Positions 40,950-60,518 of a stretch of DNA of 64,000 nt are shown piece by piece (within the stretch, counting starts at the first letter, position 1; every line of letters begins with the position of its first letter). This stretch comes from Aliihoeflea sp. 40Bstr573. GTDB taxonomy: Bacteria > Pseudomonadota > Alphaproteobacteria > Rhizobiales > Rhizobiaceae. The stretch covers positions 62,001-126,000 of the forward strand of contig NZ_JAAAMH010000005.1 in assembly GCF_024105655.1 (NCBI RefSeq), given 5' to 3'. The position numbers and the translations under genes are program-made. The notes beneath the pieces were generated by a model that ran no database searches, was not told the DNA's origin, and saw only the letters and a list, made by a program, of their open reading frames with translations.

Positions 40950-41875
40950 TCGGCGAGCGCCAGCAATTCATCGACGATGCCGAGATAAACGCGCTCGACC
41001 GGGCGCAGCTCGACATTCGGATTGGTCACCATGTAGACGTCCGCGCCGATCATGCCCTCCAGCGTCGGCAGGGGGTAGATCGTGCCGGAGGCGACGTCCT
41101 GCTCGACGGCGGCGACAGGCAGGACGCCGATGCCGAGTCCGGACATGATCATGCGCCGGACCTCCTCGAGGTTGGAACTGGAACCGACGACGCGCTGGCC
41201 GAGGCCGGAGCCGCTGCGCAGCATGGCCATCGGCTCGAAGCCGCCGCCATCGGTCGCGCAGGTGAAGGCGACGAAGGGTTCCTGCTGGAGGGAGCCGACC
41301 GATATGTCGGTGCTGCCGAACAGGCGGTGCTCCCGGCCGCAGAAAATAGCGAAATCCTCACGGCACAAGAGGCGGCAATCGAGCCCGACGACCGGTTTCA
41401 TCAAGAGGCAGATTCCGATCGGCAGCACTTCCTGAGCCACCTGCCGGACGATGTCGCTGCTGTTGGCGACGTCGATGCGCCAGGTCACGGACGGGTGCCT
41501 CTCATGGGCAAGACGGATGGATTCGTCGACGAGAGCCGACTGCAGATGGCTGACGATCGATAGCCGCAGCAGGCCGATGGTGACGTCCTCGTCTGCCGCG
41601 ATCTGGTCGCTCAACCGCGTGACGCTCTGGAATATCTCGGCGCAATGCTTGGCGACGAGCTCGCCATTCGTGGTCAGCAGGAAATTGCGGCTGTTGCGCT
41701 CGACGAGCTGGACGCCCAGCGTTTCCTCCAGCCGCTGCAGCGAGAGCGACACGGAGGGCTGACGAAGCGCGAGGCGCTGCGCAGCGCGCGTGATGCTCTT
41801 CTCCTCGGCGATGACGTGAAACGTCCGCAGAAGATTCCAATTCATGCTGGCGACCAGCGAGGGAAGTCCGTTCAT
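40940..41875 (-). CDS. LysR-family transcriptional regulator
   Basis: A 311-residue regulator of standard size. The helix-turn-helix is SITRAAQRLALRQPSVSLSL (about 27-46). CGGAGG lies five bases before ATG 41875. It converges with the ornithine-cyclodeaminase-like gene, so it does not sit in the divergent position typical for LysR control of the neighbouring operon; control of the TRAP/M20 operon is possible but not shown. Confidence 0.88.
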   Translation of the reverse strand: MNGLPSLVASMNWNLLRTFHVIAEEKSITRAAQRLALRQPSVSLSLQRLEETLGVQLVERNSRNFLLTTNGELVAKHCAEIFQSVTRLSDQIAADEDVTIGLLRLSIVSHLQSALVDESIRLAHERHPSVTWRIDVANSSDIVRQVAQEVLPIGICLLMKPVVGLDCRLLCREDFAIFCGREHRLFGSTDISVGSLQQEPFVAFTCATDGGGFEPMAMLRSGSGLGQRVVGSSSNLEEVRRMIMSGLGIGVLPVAAVEQDVASGTIYPLPTLEGMIGADVYMVTNPNVELRPVERVYLGIVDELLALADQP

Positions 41876-47202: not shown

Positions 47203-48105
47203 TCAATGGAGCGCTGTGTCGAGCGACTGGGCCCGGGCGACGCGGGCTGCGATGTCGACGACGAGCTCGACTGCCAGCGTGTCCGGCGATTCGAGCCAGC
47301 TTGCGCAAAATGACAGCTGCGGCATCCGGACGTCCGACTGGATCAGTTCCAATCTGCCCGAACGAAGCTCTTCCTTGACGAGCTGATCGGGGATGACGGC
47401 GACGCCGATGCCTTCCAGTGCGAGATGAACGACCGTCGCCATCGAGGCGCTGGCGTGCAGCTTGATTGCCGGCAAGTCGGGACGGTTGAAGAGCGACTTC
47501 ACCAGCTCATAGGGTTGCGTCTTGCGCGCGAAGGTGATGATGGGGAAGCTCGCGAGCTGACGAATGTCTGCAGGGTTGGGCACCTTCATCGCCGGGCTGG
47601 CGATGAAGCCCACGGCATATTCGCACAACAGACGGTTGCGCAGGAGCGGCGCGGTGAGAGGACCCAGCAGGAATGCGATGTCGACCTCCTGCGCCAGCAG
47701 ACGCGCACGCAGCGAGGGCGAGATGTCGACCTCGATCTCGACCGACAGATGCGGATAGCAGCGGTTCACTTCCTTGATGAAATCCGGCAGCCAGGTATGG
47801 ACGATCGTCTCGGCGACGCCCAGCCTGATGATGCCGCGGATCGCTGTCGTGTCCCGAAGGGCGGCCAGCATCTCGGCGCGCATCCCGATCATCTTCTCGG
47901 CGTAGCCGAGCACTTGCCGGCCGCGCGCCGTCGGCGTGATGTTGCGCGCTTCGCGCGTCAGAAGCTTGAAGCCAAGCTCGTCTTCGAGCTGGGCGATCCG
48001 GTGGGAGATGGCGGGCTGGGTGGTGTTGAGCTTTTGCGCCGCGCCGCGAAAGCTGCCGAGCGCCACGACCCACACGAAGGTTTCGAGCCCCTTGAAATCA
48101 ACCAT
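47203..48105 (-). CDS. LysR-family transcriptional regulator
   Basis: A 300-residue regulator. The helix-turn-helix is SFRGAAQKLNTTQPAISHRI (about 18-37), of the type seen in many catabolic regulators. AAGGGTGG lies immediately before the ATG. It follows the amidase/membrane-protein genes of the second catabolic island on the same strand after 73 bp, so it is a candidate regulator of that island, though it may instead act on the DMT permease gene. Confidence 0.9.
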   Translation of the reverse strand: MVDFKGLETFVWVVALGSFRGAAQKLNTTQPAISHRIAQLEDELGFKLLTREARNITPTARGRQVLGYAEKMIGMRAEMLAALRDTTAIRGIIRLGVAETIVHTWLPDFIKEVNRCYPHLSVEIEVDISPSLRARLLAQEVDIAFLLGPLTAPLLRNRLLCEYAVGFIASPAMKVPNPADIRQLASFPIITFARKTQPYELVKSLFNRPDLPAIKLHASASMATVVHLALEGIGVAVIPDQLVKEELRSGRLELIQSDVRMPQLSFCASWLESPDTLAVELVVDIAARVARAQSLDTALH

Positions 48106-48178: not shown

Positions 48179-48970
48179 TCACGTGCGCCGACTTTGAGCG
48201 ATAACGGTCAAGGCGATGGTTGTCCCAAAGGATGCCAGAAGAGCAGCGCCGTAGCCCTGCCATTGGCCGATCGGCACACTCGTCACCGCCAGCGCAAGGC
48301 AAAAGCCCACGAGACTGACGACGCCGACGAGGCCGGCATGGGCGGTCTGGCTGGCGATTTCGGCGCCGTGGTCGAGCCGCAGCGACAAGAGGATGACGCA
48401 AAAGCCGATGGGGAAAGCCAGCAGCGTTCCGGCGAGCGACGCGCCGAGACGCGATGCGCCGAATGTCACGCACCCCACGAGAACTCCTGCCGCGACACCG
48501 CGCAGGATCAAGAGGTTCCAGCGTGTGGGTGAGGGCGTGCGCCTGTCGGGATCGACGAAACGGCGGCCGACCGAGCGTGCAATCAAGGTTGTGAACGCGA
48601 ACAGGGCCGCGCCAACCAGAGGGTCGTGCGGCACGAAGGCCAGAGGAATGGCGAACACGCACCAGGCCGCAATGGCGGCGGCTGTGGCGCCCAGTGCTCC
48701 AAGACGTGCCGAAGCGATGACGAATGCGCCGAGGAATATCTGCGTGGCGGCGAGCGAATAGATTGCTCCCGAAGCGCTGGCGGCGACGAAGTCGGCCGAA
48801 TGTTCGCGCAGCATGAAGAAGAAACCGGGCGCGAGCACGATGGGCAGACCGATGACGACACCGCCGATGGCGGGGCCGAGCCGAGCTGCGATCCAGGCAA
48901 CGAAAACAACGACGAAGGCCGTGGACGCGGCCCTGATCGCGAACTCCGTCCACTGGCCGACATCACTCAT
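48179..48970 (-). CDS. Polytopic membrane protein, function unknown
   Basis: A 263-residue protein, almost entirely hydrophobic, with about eight predicted helices and one polar loop near residues 140-150 (RRFVDPDRRTPSPTRW). The N- and C-terminal halves each hold a repeated pattern of GxxIG(L/F)P segments (GGVVIGLPIVLAPGFFFML; AGTLLAFPIGFCVILLSL), which suggests an internal duplication. The start overlaps the amidase stop (ATGA), so it belongs to the TRAP/amidase operon and may be an exporter or second uptake protein. I do not recognise the family. Confidence 0.7.
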   Translation of the reverse strand: MSDVGQWTEFAIRAASTAFVVVFVAWIAARLGPAIGGVVIGLPIVLAPGFFFMLREHSADFVAASASGAIYSLAATQIFLGAFVIASARLGALGATAAAIAAWCVFAIPLAFVPHDPLVGAALFAFTTLIARSVGRRFVDPDRRTPSPTRWNLLILRGVAAGVLVGCVTFGASRLGASLAGTLLAFPIGFCVILLSLRLDHGAEIASQTAHAGLVGVVSLVGFCLALAVTSVPIGQWQGYGAALLASFGTTIALTVIAQSRRT

Positions 48971-50253
48971 GCGTCGAGGATGGCTTGCGCCTGCTCCGCC
49001 AGGTTCAGCACGCGCCAGTCGGCTCCGCCGGGCGCAAAGAGCATCAACCCCGTCGCAAGGGTTTGTTCGCCTTGCATGGGCAACGTCGCCGCACAGCCAT
49101 CGAGGAAGTTCACGGCGGACGGATTACGCAGCATCGACGCATTGAGCCTGTCGAAATCGGCCTCGACATCTGCGATCGACGGCGCGACGGTTGGCAGGGT
49201 CGGCGCGACGAAACCGTCGAAATCCTGACCCAGTAACTCGAACGCGGCGACGGCGACCTTGCGTTTGGCGCGGGCGTCCGCGACATCGGATGGGCCAAAT
49301 CCTTCGGCTGCCCGAATCCGGCTGAGGACCCGCGCATCGCCGACCGTTGCCAACGCGTCGAGTCTGTCCTCGTGGATCGCGTATGCCTCGGTCGCGACGA
49401 GGATGCGGTTCACGCTGCCGAAGCCTTCGAGCATCGGCAGGTCCACATCGACGAGTTCGAATCCCGCAGCCGCAAGACGCTTGAGCGCCGCGTCGAAATC
49501 GCGCGCAACCTGTTCGTCGAGCCCGTCGGTCAGGAGGCCGCGGGCTACGCCGATTCGGGGATTGCGAGTGGTGCCGGTTTCGGGGCGCTGGGTTTGCGAC
49601 AGCACGGCGTAGACGGCCGCACATTGTGCAATCGTGCGGGCGAGCGGTCCGATGCTGTCATAAGTCTGGGACAGCGGAAACGCGCCGTCGAGCGGCACCG
49701 ACGCCTGCGTCGGCTTAAATCCGGACAAGCCGTTCAGGGCCGCCGGAATGCGCACCGAGCCACCCGTATCCGAACCCAGAGCCACGTCGGCCAGACCGAG
49801 CGCCACAGTGACGGCGCCGCCCGAGGTCGATCCGCCCGTAATCCGCGTGGGGTCGAGCGCGTTCGACGGATTGCCGAAATGCGGGTTCAGCCCGACGCCC
49901 GAATATGCGAATTCGGACATGGTCGTGCGCCCGAAGGCAACCGCGCCTGCAGCCTTCAGCCGCCGAACGGCCTCAGCGTCCCGCGTCGCCGCCGGTTCGC
50001 TCGCAAGAATGGTCGAGCCGGCGGTCGTGGTGATGCCGGCCTCGTCGAACAGATCCTTGATCGACACAAGAAGGCCGGCCAGAGGTTTGCCGCTGCGTAC
50101 CGCATCGGCATCGAGCGCGCGGGCATCATCGACGATGCGCGCGGCATCGAAGCTGGTGAAGATCGACGCCCGCACGTCTGGCGACAGCGCCATCGTGCGT
50201 TCGATGGCGGTGCGCGCGCGATCCTCGGCGCGAGGGAGCGGACTATCGGTCAT
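48967..50253 (-). CDS. Amidase (amidase-signature family)
   Basis: A 428-residue hydrolase of the Ser-cisSer-Lys type. Lys66 in SIKDLFD is the catalytic lysine, the GGSTSGGA loop (140-147) holds the cis-serine, and Ser166 in SDTGGSVRIPA is the nucleophile. It cleaves an amide to an acid and ammonia; the substrate is not evident. It begins 8 bp after the DUF2848 gene. In this island it could open a ring-derived amide after the cyclic substrate has been cleaved by the oxoprolinase. Confidence 0.88.
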   Translation of the reverse strand: MTDSPLPRAEDRARTAIERTMALSPDVRASIFTSFDAARIVDDARALDADAVRSGKPLAGLLVSIKDLFDEAGITTTAGSTILASEPAATRDAEAVRRLKAAGAVAFGRTTMSEFAYSGVGLNPHFGNPSNALDPTRITGGSTSGGAVTVALGLADVALGSDTGGSVRIPAALNGLSGFKPTQASVPLDGAFPLSQTYDSIGPLARTIAQCAAVYAVLSQTQRPETGTTRNPRIGVARGLLTDGLDEQVARDFDAALKRLAAAGFELVDVDLPMLEGFGSVNRILVATEAYAIHEDRLDALATVGDARVLSRIRAAEGFGPSDVADARAKRKVAVAAFELLGQDFDGFVAPTLPTVAPSIADVEADFDRLNASMLRNPSAVNFLDGCAATLPMQGEQTLATGLMLFAPGGADWRVLNLAEQAQAILDA

Positions 50254-50261
50254 GCTGGTCC

Positions 50262-50960
50262 TCAGGAAATGACGGGCAGGGGGGTCATCTCGTAGCAGTG
50301 CTCGATCGTCCGGCCCAGCCTTTCATCGATCATTTCCATGCGGAAAAAGCGTGCCGGGCGCACGCCGCCCGACAAGACGGCAAAGGTACCGCACATCATT
50401 GCCGTGCCGGCTTCAAGGCGCAGCGCGCCGGATGCGGCGGGCGAGGATGCGACGAGTTCGCCCAGCGGACGGATCGAGGCGAGCTTGCCATCCTGATAGG
50501 GCGTCCATTCGGCATTCGCGTCGTCGCGAACGAAGGAGCGGATGCGGATTTCGTCGAGATGGCCTTCGACCTCCTCGAATGGCCACAGGACTGGTGCGAC
50601 CGGCTTGGCGCAGATCTGCTTCGACAGCGCAACGGAATGCGTTTCAAGCGCGCGGTCCGTATGGTCGGAGCCGAGGCCCAGATAGAGCCGCGCGCCGTCA
50701 TCGACCAGAACCGGCTCTGCTTCTCCCGACGACGTGCCGTCGACGGTCTCGATCGCAGCCTGGGTGGTCAGCAGGCTGGCCGAGACGCGGTAGAAGAGCG
50801 GCACGGTGCTCGGCGGCGGAACGCCAATCTCCTCCAGTTCAGCGATGTGATGGTTGACTGCATCGGCATTGCGTCCCGTCCAGCCGGCGATGATACCCCG
50901 GTTTATATCGATGGATGCCTTGCCGTGGCCGACAATCTCGAATTCCAGTTTGTTGGTCAT
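50262..50960 (-). CDS. DUF2848 protein
   Basis: A 232-residue protein, which I assign to DUF2848 from recall of its motifs: VPLFYRVSASLLTTQ, LGLGSDHTDRALETHSV and MCGTFAVLSGGVRPARFFRM. The fold is thought to resemble fumarylacetoacetate hydrolase, but the function is not known. The gene lies in the TRAP/amidase operon, between DctM and the amidase gene. ATG 50960 gives MTNKLEFEI; the ribosome-binding site is weak. Confidence 0.75.
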   Translation of the reverse strand: MTNKLEFEIVGHGKASIDINRGIIAGWTGRNADAVNHHIAELEEIGVPPPSTVPLFYRVSASLLTTQAAIETVDGTSSGEAEPVLVDDGARLYLGLGSDHTDRALETHSVALSKQICAKPVAPVLWPFEEVEGHLDEIRIRSFVRDDANAEWTPYQDGKLASIRPLGELVASSPAASGALRLEAGTAMMCGTFAVLSGGVRPARFFRMEMIDERLGRTIEHCYEMTPLPVIS

Positions 50961-50991
50961 GCGTTTTCCGTGACTTCTCGAATGTGTGTGG

Positions 50992-52269
50992 TCAGGCGGG
51001 TGCAAAGAACAGGGCAATGCTCGGGAAGGCCACGAGCAGAACCACCATCAGCAGCATCACGAAGACGTAGGGGATGACGCCGATCATGACCTCGCTCAAT
51101 CGGCCACTCTTGCGCGCGCCCTGAACCACATAAAGGTTCAGACCGACCGGCGGCGTGATGAGCGCCATTTCAACCAGGACGATCAGCAGGATGCCGAACC
51201 AGACCTTGTCGAAGCCGAGGCCGGCGATGATCGGGACGACGATGGGGATCGTCGCGATCATCAGCGCGAGCGTCTCGATGAAGAAGCCAAGCACGATGTA
51301 CATCAAGATGATGACGAGCAGCATGCCGTAGGGCCCGAGACCGAGATCGTTGAGGAACGTCGTCAACTGACGGCCGAGCCCCGTCGCGCCGAGTGCGTAG
51401 TTGAGGAAGTAGGCGCCGACGATGACGAACATCACCATCGACGTGGTGCGAATCGTGCCGAGAAGGGCTGCGCGGATGTTGGGGAGCGTGACCGCGCCGT
51501 GGAAGGCAGCGATGACGAGCGCCATCGCGACACCGATGGCAGCCGCTTCGGTGGGCGTCGCCCAGCCGCGATAGATCGAGCCGATGATCACCGCGAAGAC
51601 GAGGAAGACCGGGATCAGATGCGGCAACCCGGCGAGCCTCTCTCGCCAGGTGAAGGAGCGGCTGGGGCCACCGAGTTCCGGCTTGATCTTGCAGATGATG
51701 GCCGTGACCAGCATGAAGCCGAGAGCCATCAAAAGACCGGGCAGAATGCCCGCCATGAAGAGCTGCGGCACCGAGGTCTGGGTCAGGAAGCCGTAGACGA
51801 TCAGGTTGATCGAGGGCGGCAGCATGATGCCGAGCGTGCCGCCGGCAGCGATCGCACCGGCAAACAGCTTGGGATCGTAACCCTGCTTTTCGGCCTGCGG
51901 CATCGCGACGGTCGCAACCGTCGCAGCCGTTGCGACCGACGAGCCGGATGTCGCCGAAAACATCGTCGCCGTGCCGATATTGGCGTGGACCAGCCCGCCC
52001 GGCAGCCATGAGAACCAGGTGTCGAGCGTCGTATAGGTCCGCTCGGCGATGCCCGCCCGCACAAGGATTTCGCCTAGAAGCACGAAGAGCGGAATGGCGA
52101 TCAAGAGAAAGCTGTCCGACGACGAATAGACCATCTGACCCAAGCCGCGCATCAGCGGCAGGGGCGAGAAAAATGCGTCGAGGCCAAATCCGAGGATAAA
52201 AAGTGCGGCACCCACGGGGATGGAAAGCGCCAGCAGGACGGCAAGTCCGATCGCGACATAGGTGATCAT
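50992..52269 (-). CDS. TRAP transporter large permease subunit (DctM-type)
   Basis: A 425-residue permease with about twelve helices. FVLLGEILVRAGIAERTYTT, ATSGSSVATAATVATVAMPQ and GGTLGIMLPPSINLIVYGFL are conserved DctM segments. The start overlaps the DctQ stop (ATGA at 52266-52269). Confidence 0.94.
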   Translation of the reverse strand: MITYVAIGLAVLLALSIPVGAALFILGFGLDAFFSPLPLMRGLGQMVYSSSDSFLLIAIPLFVLLGEILVRAGIAERTYTTLDTWFSWLPGGLVHANIGTATMFSATSGSSVATAATVATVAMPQAEKQGYDPKLFAGAIAAGGTLGIMLPPSINLIVYGFLTQTSVPQLFMAGILPGLLMALGFMLVTAIICKIKPELGGPSRSFTWRERLAGLPHLIPVFLVFAVIIGSIYRGWATPTEAAAIGVAMALVIAAFHGAVTLPNIRAALLGTIRTTSMVMFVIVGAYFLNYALGATGLGRQLTTFLNDLGLGPYGMLLVIILMYIVLGFFIETLALMIATIPIVVPIIAGLGFDKVWFGILLIVLVEMALITPPVGLNLYVVQGARKSGRLSEVMIGVIPYVFVMLLMVVLLVAFPSIALFFAPA

Positions 52270-52844
52270 GAGACTTCTCCCGTTTCCAACGGAATGCCGG
52301 AGAGATCGGTGACGAGATTCCACTGCCGCGAGAAGGCGAGGATCACGGTACAGGCCAGCATGGCGGACGCCGTCAACGTCATCCACGCCCATCCGGCAAA
52401 CCAGATCACCTGTGGTATCCATAGCTGGATCGCCATCGGGGTGTTGGATCGCGAGCCGCGCTCGACCGATTTGGCGAGAACGTCATAGGCATAGTAGGCG
52501 ACGAGCACCGCCACGCAGAGCACGCTCGCAAGCGCGATCATGTCGAACAGCGCGCGTCCGGGGGCGGGCAGTTTCGCGTGGACGAGGTCGATGCGCACAT
52601 GGGCACGCTCCACCAGCGCATATGAAAAGCCCCAGGTCGCGATGCCGGCCATGACGTAGCCGGCAAGCTCATCGGCGCCGCCGACGCGAAAGAACGGAAT
52701 GCGGCGGCCGACGACCTCGGAAAGGATGAGGGCGACGGTGATCATCAGAACCACGCCGCAAATGAGCGCGATCCATCGGTTGAGTGTTTTCACGAGGTCG
52801 GCGATATGCATCGCCGACCCCGCAAGTGACCTTGTCCCAGTCAT
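52266..52844 (-). CDS. TRAP transporter small permease subunit (DctQ-type)
   Basis: A 192-residue protein with four helices. SEVVGRRIPFFRVGGADELA is the DctQ signature near residue 50. The start at 52844 has GAGGG five bases upstream; an inner ATG at 52811 is possible. It is coupled to the large subunit. Confidence 0.9.
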   Translation of the reverse strand: MTGTRSLAGSAMHIADLVKTLNRWIALICGVVLMITVALILSEVVGRRIPFFRVGGADELAGYVMAGIATWGFSYALVERAHVRIDLVHAKLPAPGRALFDMIALASVLCVAVLVAYYAYDVLAKSVERGSRSNTPMAIQLWIPQVIWFAGWAWMTLTASAMLACTVILAFSRQWNLVTDLSGIPLETGEVS

Positions 52845-52867: not shown

Positions 52868-53923
52868 TTACTGGGCGATCGTTACGTCGAATTCAGCGCC
52901 GATGCTCTCGTTCCAGCGCGTGGCCCAGTCGCCGCCGGCCCGTTCCGCCCAATCGGGGAGGATCGTCTCTTCGAGAACCGAGACGGCGCGCGCCTTGTCC
53001 TCGTCGGACAGTTCGACCAGGGTCATGGAAGCTGCTGCGCCCGCCGCGCATTCACCGCCGGTCAGGCAGGCGATGTCACGCTCCAGCGCGCCGCCGGCAT
53101 CCGCCCACGCCTTCGCCTCGAACTCGGTCGCAACCTGCTCGGTGAGGAAGGTCTGGACCGCGGGATCGAGGCCTTCCCAGACGTCGAGATTGACGGCAGT
53201 GATGACGGGGTCCCAGCCGCCGAGCGGCAGGTTGACGAGGTGGGTCGAGGATTCGAACCAGCCCGAAGCATAGCCCGAGCCAGCGCCCGTAACCGCACAG
53301 TCGATGACGCCGCGCTCAAGCGCGCCGGGCACTTCCGAGAACGCCATGGTCACGCCTTCGGCGCCGAGCGCTTCGAGGAAGAGCGAGGTCATGCGGCCCG
53401 AACCGCGAATCTTTTTTCCTTCCAGGTCGGCAAGGCTGGCAACTTCCGCGTTGCAGAAGACGATCTGCGGCGGATAGGGCGCGATGGCGAGCGCGTGGGC
53501 GTTGAAGCGGTCGCGCATGATGTCAGCGACCATCGGTTTGGCGGCTTCCGTCATGCGCTTGGCGGCATCGGCGTCGGTGGCGATCAGCGGCACATCGAGG
53601 CCTTCGAGTTCGGGCGCATCGCCGACCGTGTAGTCGCCGACCGTCATTCCGATGTCGAACACGCCGTCACCGAGCATGCGGAAGACGTCGCCACCGGTAA
53701 CGCCCATCTGGTCGAAGGTGGTCATGTTGACCGTGATCTTGCCGTTGGAGGCGGTCGGAACGGTCTCTTCCCAGAAGCCGCGCTCGAATTCCTGATAGAG
53801 CGGAAGGTTGCTCCAGCTTCCCACGACGTTGAGCATCGTCTCGGGCAGGTCCTGCGCGGATGCGGCGAAGGCGAGCGGAGCCAAAGCGGCACCGGCAAGA
53901 AGCGTGCGAATGATGGTTTTCAT
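52868..53923 (-). CDS. TRAP transporter DctP-type solute-binding protein
   Basis: A 351-residue periplasmic receptor with a signal peptide ending near AFAASA-QDL. LADLEGKKIRGSGRMTSLFL has the conserved arginine at the carboxylate site, and GALERGVIDCAVTGAGSGYA is the next conserved block. Two Cys in a C-terminal insertion (CLTGGEC) may form a disulfide. AGGGGAA lies before the ATG. It is separated from the DUF1445 gene upstream by 64 bp that contain a hairpin. Confidence 0.92.
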   Translation of the reverse strand: MKTIIRTLLAGAALAPLAFAASAQDLPETMLNVVGSWSNLPLYQEFERGFWEETVPTASNGKITVNMTTFDQMGVTGGDVFRMLGDGVFDIGMTVGDYTVGDAPELEGLDVPLIATDADAAKRMTEAAKPMVADIMRDRFNAHALAIAPYPPQIVFCNAEVASLADLEGKKIRGSGRMTSLFLEALGAEGVTMAFSEVPGALERGVIDCAVTGAGSGYASGWFESSTHLVNLPLGGWDPVITAVNLDVWEGLDPAVQTFLTEQVATEFEAKAWADAGGALERDIACLTGGECAAGAAASMTLVELSDEDKARAVSVLEETILPDWAERAGGDWATRWNESIGAEFDVTIAQ

Positions 53924-53987: not shown

Positions 53988-54767
53988 CTACGCGATTTCC
54001 GCTCGAAGGTCGGTCACCAGCATATGACCCGGCGCATGCGTGATCGCGATTTCCGGCCTGGCGTGCCGGATGGCGGATTGCGGCGTGACACCGCAGGCCC
54101 AGAAGACGGGAACGTCGCCGGGGCGAATGTCTGGCGCATCGCCGAAATCCGGCTTTGCGAGATCAACGCCGATCAACGCAGGATCGCCGATATGAACCGG
54201 CGCGCCATGCGCCTGCGGCAAGTGCGAGGACAGGATGATCGCGCGGATGGCGTCCTGCGGGTTGAAAGAGCGCATCGAGACCACCAGAGGACCGGCGAAC
54301 GGGCCTGCCGCGACGGTCGGGATGTTGGTCTCGTACATTGCGACGTTGCGGCCCGCCTCGATATGGCGCACCGGGATGTCGGCGCGCAGCAATGCCGTTT
54401 CGAAAGAGAACGAACAGCCTATCACGAAGGTCACGAAATCCTCGCGCCAGAATGCTTCGATGTCCGTTACCGTGTCCGTTGCCTCGCCATTCCGGAAGAC
54501 GCGATAGGCCGGCGCGTCATAGCGGATGTCGAGATCAGCGCCGAGCGAGGGCAACCGCGGATCGCCGACTTCGGACACGCCCAGTATCGGCGCGGGCTTG
54601 GGGTTGCGAACGCAAAAGCGCAGGAAATCGTCGGCATAGGCCGCTGGCAAGATCACCACATTGCCTTGCTGAAATCCTTGGGCGAGTCCGCTCGTCGGTG
54701 CGGCGAGCTGACCGGTACGGCACGCCTTGCGTACCTGTTCGGCTGTATCGAAACGAACGCTATCCAT
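53988..54767 (-). CDS. DUF1445 protein (putative hydro-lyase/D-glutamate cyclase family)
   Basis: A 259-residue protein. Conserved DUF1445 segments are [49 protein letters not shown] and the C-terminal [11 protein letters not shown]. Bacterial members are annotated as hydro-lyases, and the mammalian member is D-glutamate cyclase (D-glutamate to 5-oxo-D-proline), so a lactam-forming or lactam-handling role would fit the oxoprolinase nearby. ATG 54767 (MDSVRF) is chosen within a longer frame. The gene is first in line before the TRAP genes and is preceded by copy 1 of the four-copy operator. Confidence 0.82.
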
Positions 54768-54858: not shown

Positions 54859-54892
54859 AGTCGAATTTTTAGTTTTCATCGCCTTCGATTAA
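54859..54892 (+). repeat. Operator-like repeat, copy 1 (upstream of the DUF1445 gene)
   Basis: 34-bp element beginning AGTCGAAT and containing TTCATCG-CCTT-CGATTAA, an imperfect inverted repeat (54875-54892). It aligns without gaps with copies 2, 3 and 4; 18 of 34 columns are the same in all four. It ends 91 bp before the DUF1445 start and points the same way relative to its gene as the other copies. Confidence 0.75.
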
Positions 54893-54916
54893 TTTCATTC
54901 ATCGCGCGGCGGGGTA

Positions 54917-56074
54917 TTAGAAGATGTTGGACCGCTCATATTGGACCGGCCAGGACACATCGGCAGCGCGCAGCGAATTTGCGGCACGGAGCGGCCAGTG
55001 GGGATCGGCCATCAGGCCTCGACCCAGCAGGACGAGGTCGGCCGAGCCGTTGGCGACGATGGATTCGGCCAGGTCCGGCGCGTTGAGCAGACCGACCGCC
55101 GCCGTCGCCATGCCTGTTGCCTCGCGCACTTTTTGGGCGAGGGGCACCTGATAGCCGGGATGGATCGGAATCGACTGGCGCGGATCGTTGCCGCCCGACG
55201 AGCAGTCGACGAGATCGACGTCGCCGCGCTCCTTCAAGATTCGAACGAGCCGAATCGTGTCGTCCATGCTCCATCCGCCTTCCACCCAATCCGTCACCGA
55301 CAGGCGCAGGAACAGGGGCAGGTCGTCGGGCCATTCGCGACGTACGGCGTCCAGCGATTCCAGCAGGAAGCGGATGCGGTTTTCGAAGCTGCCGCCATAC
55401 AGATCGTCGCGGCTGTTGCTCAGCGGCGAATAGAACTGATGGATCAGATAGCCGTGGGCCGCATGGATCTCGAGTATCCGGAAACCGGCTTCCCGGGCGC
55501 GGCGTGTTGCCTGCGCAAGGGCCTCGATCTCGGCGCGGATGCCATCGATGTCGAGTGGCTGCGGCGCAGGCCATGCGGCTGCATAGGGCAGGCCGGAGCA
55601 CGACACCGTTTCCCAGCCGCCATCTAGTGGCGTCACCGGCCCGCTTCCTTCCCACGGCCTTCCAACCGACGCCTTGCGCCCGGCATGGCCAAGCTGGATG
55701 GCCGGCACGGCGCCCTGCGCGGAGACGAACCGGACGATGCGCGCCAGCGCGTCGCGCTGGTCGTCGTTCCAAAGGCCCAGATCGTGCTGCGTGATGCGGC
55801 CATGCGGCGCGACATGCACCGCTTCCGTGCAGACGATGCCTGCACCGCCGACGGCGCGCGCGCCCAGATGAACGAGGTGCCAGTCATTGGGCATGCCGTC
55901 GACGGCAGAATATTGGCACATCGGCGACAGCATGATGCGATTGCGCGTTTCGACGGAGCGGAAGCTGATCGGCCGGAACAGGTGAGGCCGAGGATCGCGA
56001 CGCAGGATGCGGCGGCCATCTTCGCCCGAAACCCTCGAATCCGTGCTCGACTTTTGGCTGTCGGGTTTCGTCAT
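54917..56074 (-). CDS. NADH:flavin oxidoreductase, Old Yellow Enzyme (YqjM/NamA type)
   Basis: A 385-residue TIM-barrel flavoprotein. MCQYSAVDGMPNDWHLVHLG has the Cys that contacts FMN in the YqjM class and the active-site segment. EIHAAHGYLIHQFYSPLSN and RDDLYGGSFENRIRFL are the substrate and FMN signatures, and VLLGRGLMADPHWPLRAAN binds the FMN phosphate. It reduces activated C=C bonds, such as an unsaturated lactam or imide. ACAGGAGA lies before ATG 56074. It is a single-gene unit with operator copy 2 upstream. Confidence 0.9.
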   Translation of the reverse strand: MTKPDSQKSSTDSRVSGEDGRRILRRDPRPHLFRPISFRSVETRNRIMLSPMCQYSAVDGMPNDWHLVHLGARAVGGAGIVCTEAVHVAPHGRITQHDLGLWNDDQRDALARIVRFVSAQGAVPAIQLGHAGRKASVGRPWEGSGPVTPLDGGWETVSCSGLPYAAAWPAPQPLDIDGIRAEIEALAQATRRAREAGFRILEIHAAHGYLIHQFYSPLSNSRDDLYGGSFENRIRFLLESLDAVRREWPDDLPLFLRLSVTDWVEGGWSMDDTIRLVRILKERGDVDLVDCSSGGNDPRQSIPIHPGYQVPLAQKVREATGMATAAVGLLNAPDLAESIVANGSADLVLLGRGLMADPHWPLRAANSLRAADVSWPVQYERSNIF

Positions 56075-56151
56075 GCGCTTCTCCTGTCTGCCGTTCCCAT
56101 GGGGTTGGTTCCCATCCATTTGCCGCAAATAGGTGCATGGCGAATGAGCCG

Positions 56152-56185
56152 AGTCGAATGGTCAGTTTTGATCGCCGCCGATCAA
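56152..56185 (+). repeat. Operator-like repeat, copy 2 (upstream of the OYE gene)
   Basis: 34-bp element with the best symmetry of the four: TTGATCG-CCGC-CGATCAA (56168-56185) is a perfect 7-bp inverted repeat. It starts 77 bp from the OYE start codon, in the 117-bp gap after the AllA-like gene. Confidence 0.8.
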
Positions 56186-56191
56186 TCCCGC

Positions 56192-56710
56192 TTATCGCGC
56201 CAGGACGAGTGAGATAGGGTGAAACGCGCTTTCGACGAGCGCGCTGCCCGTGTTGAGATGATGGGCAAGATCCAGCGTCGTGGAACGGCGCGTCAGCATT
56301 GCACAGGTGACTTCGTCGCGCTCGATTCTTGTGGCGTGCCAGCATCCGGGCCGCATGCAGATACCCTGTCCGCTTAGGATAAGGAACGCGCGAGCGCTGA
56401 CTTCATCCAGCGAGCCGTCCGGATGGCTCAGTCCGACGACATGGATGATCGGGCCGGTCAGCGGTATGATGGCCTGCTGTGTCAGGAGATGGGTTTCCTG
56501 CCGGGCGATCGCGACATCGCGGCTGCGATAGACGACCCAAAGCACTTCGGTCTCCCCGCCGGCCGTGTCGAAGACATGTTCGCTCCAGAAATCGCTCGCC
56601 GGGCTGACGAAGCTCGCCGCGTCCAACGGATCGCAGGGCTTGCCCAGCATCCAGCCGTAAGGCGCGATGGTCTCGGCCGTCAGCGGTTCGACTGCGAGTG
56701 CTCGTGCCAT
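56192..56710 (-). CDS. Ureidoglycolate lyase-like protein (AllA family)
   Basis: A 172-residue cupin-fold protein of the AllA family. ALAVEPLTAETIAPYGWMLG is the usual N-terminus and PLTGPIIHVVGLSHPDGSLD with GICMRPGCWHATRI is the cupin core. AllA splits ureidoglycolate to urea and glyoxylate; no other ureide-pathway gene is close, so the natural substrate may differ. AGGAAA six bases before ATG 56710 decides that start over 56740. It diverges from the oxoprolinase-like gene and has operator copy 3 upstream. Confidence 0.78.
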   Translation of the reverse strand: MARALAVEPLTAETIAPYGWMLGKPCDPLDAASFVSPASDFWSEHVFDTAGGETEVLWVVYRSRDVAIARQETHLLTQQAIIPLTGPIIHVVGLSHPDGSLDEVSARAFLILSGQGICMRPGCWHATRIERDEVTCAMLTRRSTTLDLAHHLNTGSALVESAFHPISLVLAR

Positions 56711-56759
56711 GCCGGTTTCCTGTGGGCCACGCTCCTGCATTGGGCATTTCCACGCCGAA

Positions 56760-56793
56760 TGTCGAATTGTCGCTATTGATCATCACCGATCCA
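56760..56793 (+). repeat. Operator-like repeat, copy 3 (upstream of the AllA-like gene)
   Basis: 34-bp element TGTCGAAT... with the core TTGATCA-TCAC-CGATCCA (56776-56793). It starts 49 bp from the AllA-like start, in the divergent gap shared with copy 4. Confidence 0.75.
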
Positions 56794-56817
56794 GCCCGTC
56801 TATCAGATGTCGATTTA

Positions 56818-56851
56818 TTTATCGATTTTGATCCAAAACGATAATTCGACT
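56818..56851 (-). repeat. Operator-like repeat, copy 4 (inverted, upstream of the oxoprolinase gene)
   Basis: Same 34-bp element on the minus strand, AGTCGAATTATCGTTT then TGGATC-AAAAT-CGATAAA. Its outer edge is 55 bp before the start at 56907. It faces copy 3 with 24 bp between them, so each divergent gene has its own copy. Confidence 0.75.
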
Positions 56852-56906
56852 TATCGGACGGGATCGACAAGATTGCCGCCATCTTCAAAACCGGGATGGC
56901 GAAGCT

Positions 56907-60518
<3,612 letters not shown>

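Follow-up and report, generated by a model that had tools for sequence, protein, structure and literature searches.

A 64,000-nucleotide stretch of the Aliihoeflea sp. 40Bstr573 genome (hereafter the window) carries four copies of a conserved DNA element within 2 kb of one gene cluster, and these copies most probably serve as operators for the LysR-type regulator whose gene lies at 47203-48105 on the minus strand. The repetition itself is confirmed as real and beyond chance. As 34-mers, the copies lie at 54859-54892, 56152-56185 and 56760-56793 on the plus strand and at 56818-56851 on the minus strand, where the original prediction had placed them, and they align without gaps; 18 of the 34 columns are identical in all four (GTCGAAT, T, T, T, ATC, CGAT and A). 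The GTCGAAT end faces the gene in every copy, giving all four the same orientation relative to their genes as predicted. The gaps between the 34-mers and the start codons are 91, 77, 49 and 55 bp for copies 1 to 4 (start codons with first bases at 54767, 56074, 56710 and 56907), matching the 49-91 bp anticipated. The length of 34 bp did not hold up: the full unit spans 44 bp, and in copies 1-3 the conserved unit extends 11 bases farther from the gene, to 54903, 56196 and 56804. In this longer form, operator 1 (54860-54903, minus strand; 16/16 letters of the longer search pattern) precedes the gene for a DUF1445 (D-glutamate cyclase family) protein and the row of genes behind it. Operator 2 (56153-56196, minus strand) precedes the OYE gene and operator 3 (56761-56804, minus strand) the AllA-like gene, both with 0 mismatches, and operator 4 (56807-56850, plus strand) precedes the oxoprolinase-like gene. 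Operators 3 and 4 share the intergenic region of two divergent genes, where they are arranged back to back with 2 bases between them (56761-56850). The four operators presumably head four transcription units, and the whole very probably constitutes a local regulon that is clearly delimited yet of an ordinary kind, with genes that look like those of lactam or oxoproline breakdown.

The genes behind operator 1 all lie on the minus strand. The DUF1445 gene (53988-54767, the start at 54767 being our own reading) encodes a protein that scores above the cut-off of the NCBIfam model 'putative hydro-lyase'. It is accompanied by genes for the TRAP transporter components DctP (52868-53923), DctQ (52266-52844) and DctM (50992-52422), a DUF2848 protein (50262-51017), an amidase (48967-50253) and a 263-aa protein (48179-48970) with no Pfam or NCBIfam match, homologues of which (55-88%) occur in the clusters of five other loci (L087, L088, L089, L150 and L268). 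The LysR-type regulator matches the Pfam families HTH_1 and LysR_substrate. The OYE family oxidoreductase (54917-56074, start ATG at 56074) and the AllA-like protein of the ureidoglycolate lyase family (56192-56710, start ATG at 56710) are likewise encoded on the minus strand. The fused hydantoinase A/B, oxoprolinase-like protein is encoded on the plus strand (56907-60518), and its best NCBIfam model, caprolactamase, stays below the cut-off. Together, these genes suggest a pathway that imports a small lactam or oxoproline-like compound and opens it. The ycs/kip oxoprolinase region of Bacillus subtilis presumably offers a parallel, with a DUF1445 gene (ycsI) beside oxoprolinase genes as here; we take that region to have a different regulator (kipR) and a PxpABC-type oxoprolinase rather than a fused hydantoinase A/B.

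The element is rare in its own genome. In the window, an 18-letter pattern matches the four copies with 0 mismatches and nothing else at up to 3 mismatches; shuffles of the window average 0.03 matches at that threshold, and 0 of 100 reach four. Because the copies themselves supplied the pattern, this count is partly circular, and the independent tests are those in other genomes. Across the whole genome (4,208,512 bases in 69 contigs), the same pattern at up to 3 mismatches returns the four copies and one 3-mismatch match, which is taken for chance; a one-letter variant of its 33-mer recurs in relatives. A search with the 44-bp-site pattern returns 29 places, 25 of them background-like, with about 30 expected by a rough count. 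A model built from 12 operators including copies 1-3 (model R1) recovers these members of its training set at E values of 1.4e-8, 2.8e-8 and 1.2e-5, and operator 4, from outside the training set, at 2.9e-5 over 56816-56850. The next R1 matches in the genome have E values of 0.35 (an antisense overlap of copy 4) and 1.09, among the 150 of 1119 first-look candidates that were scored. With that scope for R1, neither the pattern nor the model reveals a fifth site above background in the 4.2-Mb genome. The original prediction had allowed that the motif might prove to occur hundreds of times without relation to start sites, and the genome-wide search instead finds it infrequent. Before the genes for LysR, EamA, ALDH, DUF2848, DctM, DctQ, DctP, a 193-aa ORF and SulP, the best matches hold 8-10 of 16 letters, the level of control windows. 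A weak antisense match (13.5 bits with R1) overlaps operator 4 at 56821-56855 on the minus strand, and it is also present in L087 and L088.

Relatives keep the motif before the same genes, the outcome on which the original prediction had also staked itself. A search of 397 genomes of the order by DNA pattern only, at no more than 1 mismatch, yields 41 places in 38 genomes, three of these places being in the genome of the window. Outside that genome, 23 of the 38 places are followed at 76-119 bases by a DUF1445 match, and the remaining 15 are taken for chance. Of the 23 loci, 14 were examined. Each contains a DUF1445 homologue, and in 13 of them a LysR homologue shares 44-64% identity with the protein at 47203-48105; at the fourteenth (L096), the LysR homologue lies farther out, at the cut edge of L150. 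Over 53 loci, R1 detects four operators in L087, two in L088 and at most one match below E 0.05 in each of the others. Operator 1 is kept in L087, L088, L089 and L150, and operators 2 and 3 are kept in L087. Operator 4 has identical letters in L087 and L088, including an ATG in place of the distal GAT. In L088, where OYE and AllA matches are absent, operators 1 and 4 precede the divergent DUF1445 and oxoprolinase-like genes. Between the window and L087, 159 of 171 operator bases are identical, compared with 219 of 287 other intergenic bases (p 3e-6). Rarity in the genome and conservation before the same genes thus support the proposal of one operator in front of four units. The AllA-like protein was also tried as an anchor and set aside: in 44 of 52 such loci, the flanks hold no cluster gene other than LysR-type matches, and the initial 34-mer pattern at up to 2 mismatches occurs only in L035 among the 52. 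AllA-like proteins of 52-60% identity occur in L036-L074 (Achromobacter and others), mostly with no other cluster genes in the flanks.

A broader survey was anchored on the DUF1445 protein, which at E<=1e-40 has 105 matches, including that of the window, in 101 of the 397 genomes. We analysed 80 of the other 104 regions with a search pattern fitted on near relatives. These 80 were not drawn blindly: the 24 omitted regions include 13 found by the DNA-only search, and six of the 80 were included after their motif had already been seen. At least 14 of 16 letters occur in 27 of the 80 upstream regions, whereas none of 1600 control windows from other parts of these loci and none of 1580 shuffles reaches this level; at a threshold of at least 12 letters, the counts are 33/80, 20/1600 and 31/1580. 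After the DNA-found regions are dropped, 17 of 70 still reach at least 14 letters. The motif also tracks the presence of an adjacent LysR gene, defined as a homologue scoring at least 110 bits and located no more than 1.3 kb upstream: at least 14 letters are found in 24 of 44 regions with such a gene and in 3 of 36 without one (p 1.2e-5). Removal of the six regions known to carry the motif leaves 18/38 against 3/36 (p 2.3e-4), and removal of all ten DNA-found regions leaves 15/35 against 2/35 (p 5.3e-4). The first box alone (GAT-N11-ATC), a dyad with T-N11-A spacing that is present in copies 1-3, occurs within 300 bp upstream in 37 of the 44 LysR-adjacent regions, 8 of the 36 others and 3 of 80 shuffled sequences. 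Several loci count against this association. Sixteen of the 44 LysR-adjacent regions have fewer than 12 letters (15 with homologues of 31-37% identity, and L183 with one of 52%), and the motif is absent from L157 and L160, which have a 42% LysR homologue 2-3 kb away. Conversely, five of the 36 regions with no adjacent LysR gene reach 12 letters. In three of them (L150, L159 and L176), the locus contains a LysR homologue at another position or at its margin; L213 has a homologue at a distance of 4.5 kb, and L218 has none.

Within the family, the regulator and the motif occur together. The LysR protein is matched at E<=1e-70 in 7 of 297 family genomes, six of which have a site. Four of these (G000, G060, G211 and G090) carry the initial 34-mer pattern in the cluster with 0 mismatches. 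G172 carries it with 2 mismatches, at 15/16 letters of the longer pattern and before the DUF1445 gene, and G029 has 14/16 letters before its DUF1445 gene (L159). The seventh, G017, counts against the association: its LysR homologue is 42% identical, and the 16 kb read there (L269) contain neither a site at 12/16 letters nor a DUF1445 match. The same-genus genomes G148 and G265 have neither a LysR match at E<=1e-70 nor the motif at 2 mismatches. By itself, the 34-mer pattern at 2 mismatches is found in 53 of the 297 genomes, mostly outside the cluster. Placement in the cluster was made for G000, G060, G090, G211 and G172, and the other matches include a recurrent 33-mer, of which the genome of the window has a one-letter variant. 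The LysR protein of L117 finds its best match in the genome of the window at 47203-48105 (65% identity, next match 26%), and the two are reciprocal best matches. Motif carriers of more than 50% identity show good conservation of the recognition-helix region. Linkage and co-occurrence thus connect a cognate LysR gene to the site, and the candidate regulator named in the original prediction gains support.

It is improbable that the motif serves a regulator encoded elsewhere, such as a second LysR (about 41057-41836) or a global regulator, with the LysR of the cluster a mere bystander. Such a reading could appeal to the position of the LysR gene, about 6.7 kb from operator 1 and with no operator of its own, to the second LysR homologue near the cluster (41057-41836, minus strand) and to the five regions that have at least 12 letters and no adjacent LysR. 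However, the search with DNA only leads to orthologues of the LysR of the cluster in 13 of the 14 loci examined, the second LysR is only 26% identical to one such orthologue (that of L117), and more than four strong sites would be expected of a global regulator.

The anatomy of the site is consistent with control by the LysR protein of the cluster. Facing the gene, the four copies read T..ATCG.....GAT..A.A...A..ATTCGAC in the 34-bp part, and the 44-bp site reads GAT-N11-ATCG-N5-GAT-N11-ATTNGAC, with two T-N11-A spacings whose centres lie 23 bp apart. The distal box is a 17-bp dyad with the T-N11-A spacing of LysR-type operators, and the second T-N11-A pair runs into a -35-like TTNGAC that may be the -35 element itself. 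The extra GAT 11 bases before ATCG is found in copies 1, 2 and 3 and in 3 of the 4 sites of L087 (G211), and it recurs before the DUF1445 gene in L088 (G060) and in L089 (G090, another genus). Copy 4 departs from this spacing, with ATG in place of the distal GAT; a GAT one base farther out is seen in the window only. T-N12-A variants have been reported for PcaQ and CutR, according to excerpts of one source (PMC12609908). Columns outside the search pattern are also kept, column 5 being A in 34 and column 13 being T in 31 of 39 sites selected at 12 letters or more. In 30 sites of less than 80% mutual identity (kinship beyond this cut is uncorrected), columns 4 and 14 are complementary in 19, compared with 12.8 expected (p 0.011), and the centre of the distal 17-bp box has the highest excess of complementarity among the centres tested. 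When the second box is treated as a dyad, no pair covaries at 5% in these 30 sites; its T-N11-A at columns 26-38 is kept.

The perfect palindrome TTGATCG-N4-CGATCAA claimed for copy 2 is present, although it is probably not the symmetric box of the regulator. It joins the inner halves of the two boxes and is absent from copies 1, 3 and 4, and its centre is outside the eight best centres in the covariation test. One of its twelve column pairs, 12-29, counts against the anatomy preferred here: it is complementary in 24 of 30 sites (14.1 expected, p 0.0005) and covaries more than any single pair of the 17-bp box. An FNR-like box, the consensus of which is TTGAT-N4-ATCAA, was considered and rejected: copy 2 reads TTGAT-N8-ATCAA, and the other three copies lack the palindrome.

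That the repeat reflects no more than a common promoter, or the recent duplication of a promoter segment, would account for some of these features and is nevertheless a decidedly remote prospect. ATTNGAC, one of the most constant parts of the site, could act as a -35, a T located 24 bases behind it is kept in 29 of 39 sites, and all four copies lie within 2 kb. Set against this, the 17-bp dyad, with its complementary columns 4 and 14, lies 22-38 bases before the supposed -35, and a recent duplication here fails to explain why relatives in other genera with a single copy keep the motif. Chance similarity of AT-rich intergenic stretches is scarcely credible: the 34-mer pattern was derived from the copies and its 2-mismatch matches in the family fall mostly outside the cluster, but the 27 of 80 upstream regions with at least 14 letters have no counterpart in the control windows or shuffles.

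As operators of the LysR protein, the four sites fit the published recognition/activation-site scheme, in which, according to excerpts of two sources (PMC12609908, PMC11739112), a LysR tetramer occupies both sites and moves at the activation site upon inducer binding. Shared with the operators described in those excerpts are the two T-N11-A spacings, a linked LysR gene, a distal box that is symmetric and, beside a -35-like hexamer, a second box of lower symmetry. In contrast to them, the present sites have family-specific GAT/ATC half-sites and occur as four copies in one cluster, of which copy 4 lacks the T-N11-A distal half. By analogy, one DNA-binding dimer would use the distal 17 bp as its recognition box, and another would use the second box, which would overlap the -35 (TTNGAC), as its activation site, with a LysR tetramer lying across both. 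A pathway metabolite, once bound, would make the tetramer shift position at this activation site and bring in RNA polymerase; the genes for uptake (TRAP), DUF1445, DUF2848, the amidase, OYE, the AllA-like protein and the oxoprolinase-like protein would thereby be switched on together. In this scheme, LysR binding, the tetramer, the direction of control, the inducer and the promoter elements are inferred; the sites themselves, with their order, spacing and conservation, the lack of a conspicuous fifth site in the genome, and the tie to this LysR gene by linkage and co-occurrence are observed.

These observations tie four promoters, one regulator and the DUF1445, DUF2848, AllA-like, OYE and caprolactamase-like enzymes into one probable regulon, and an inducer screen with the reporter of a single promoter could therefore reveal the substrate. 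None of the titles and abstracts listed in a literature search deals with this regulon. The operator, whose conservation extends past the genus, can serve to mark pathway members in other genomes. More broadly, we lean towards the view that DUF1445-centred catabolism in Hyphomicrobiales and some more distant genomes is controlled by a LysR subfamily that has an operator code to itself, a GATAA..TTATC dyad followed by GAT-N11-ATTNGAC, and that in Aliihoeflea this control has spread to four promoters, taking in the OYE, AllA-like and oxoprolinase-like genes. If so, the operator would serve as a marker for other genes of the pathway in each genome. The transporter behind the DUF1445 gene varies among loci: a TRAP transporter is found in L227, and a branched-chain-type ABC transporter takes its place in L169 (6847-11389).
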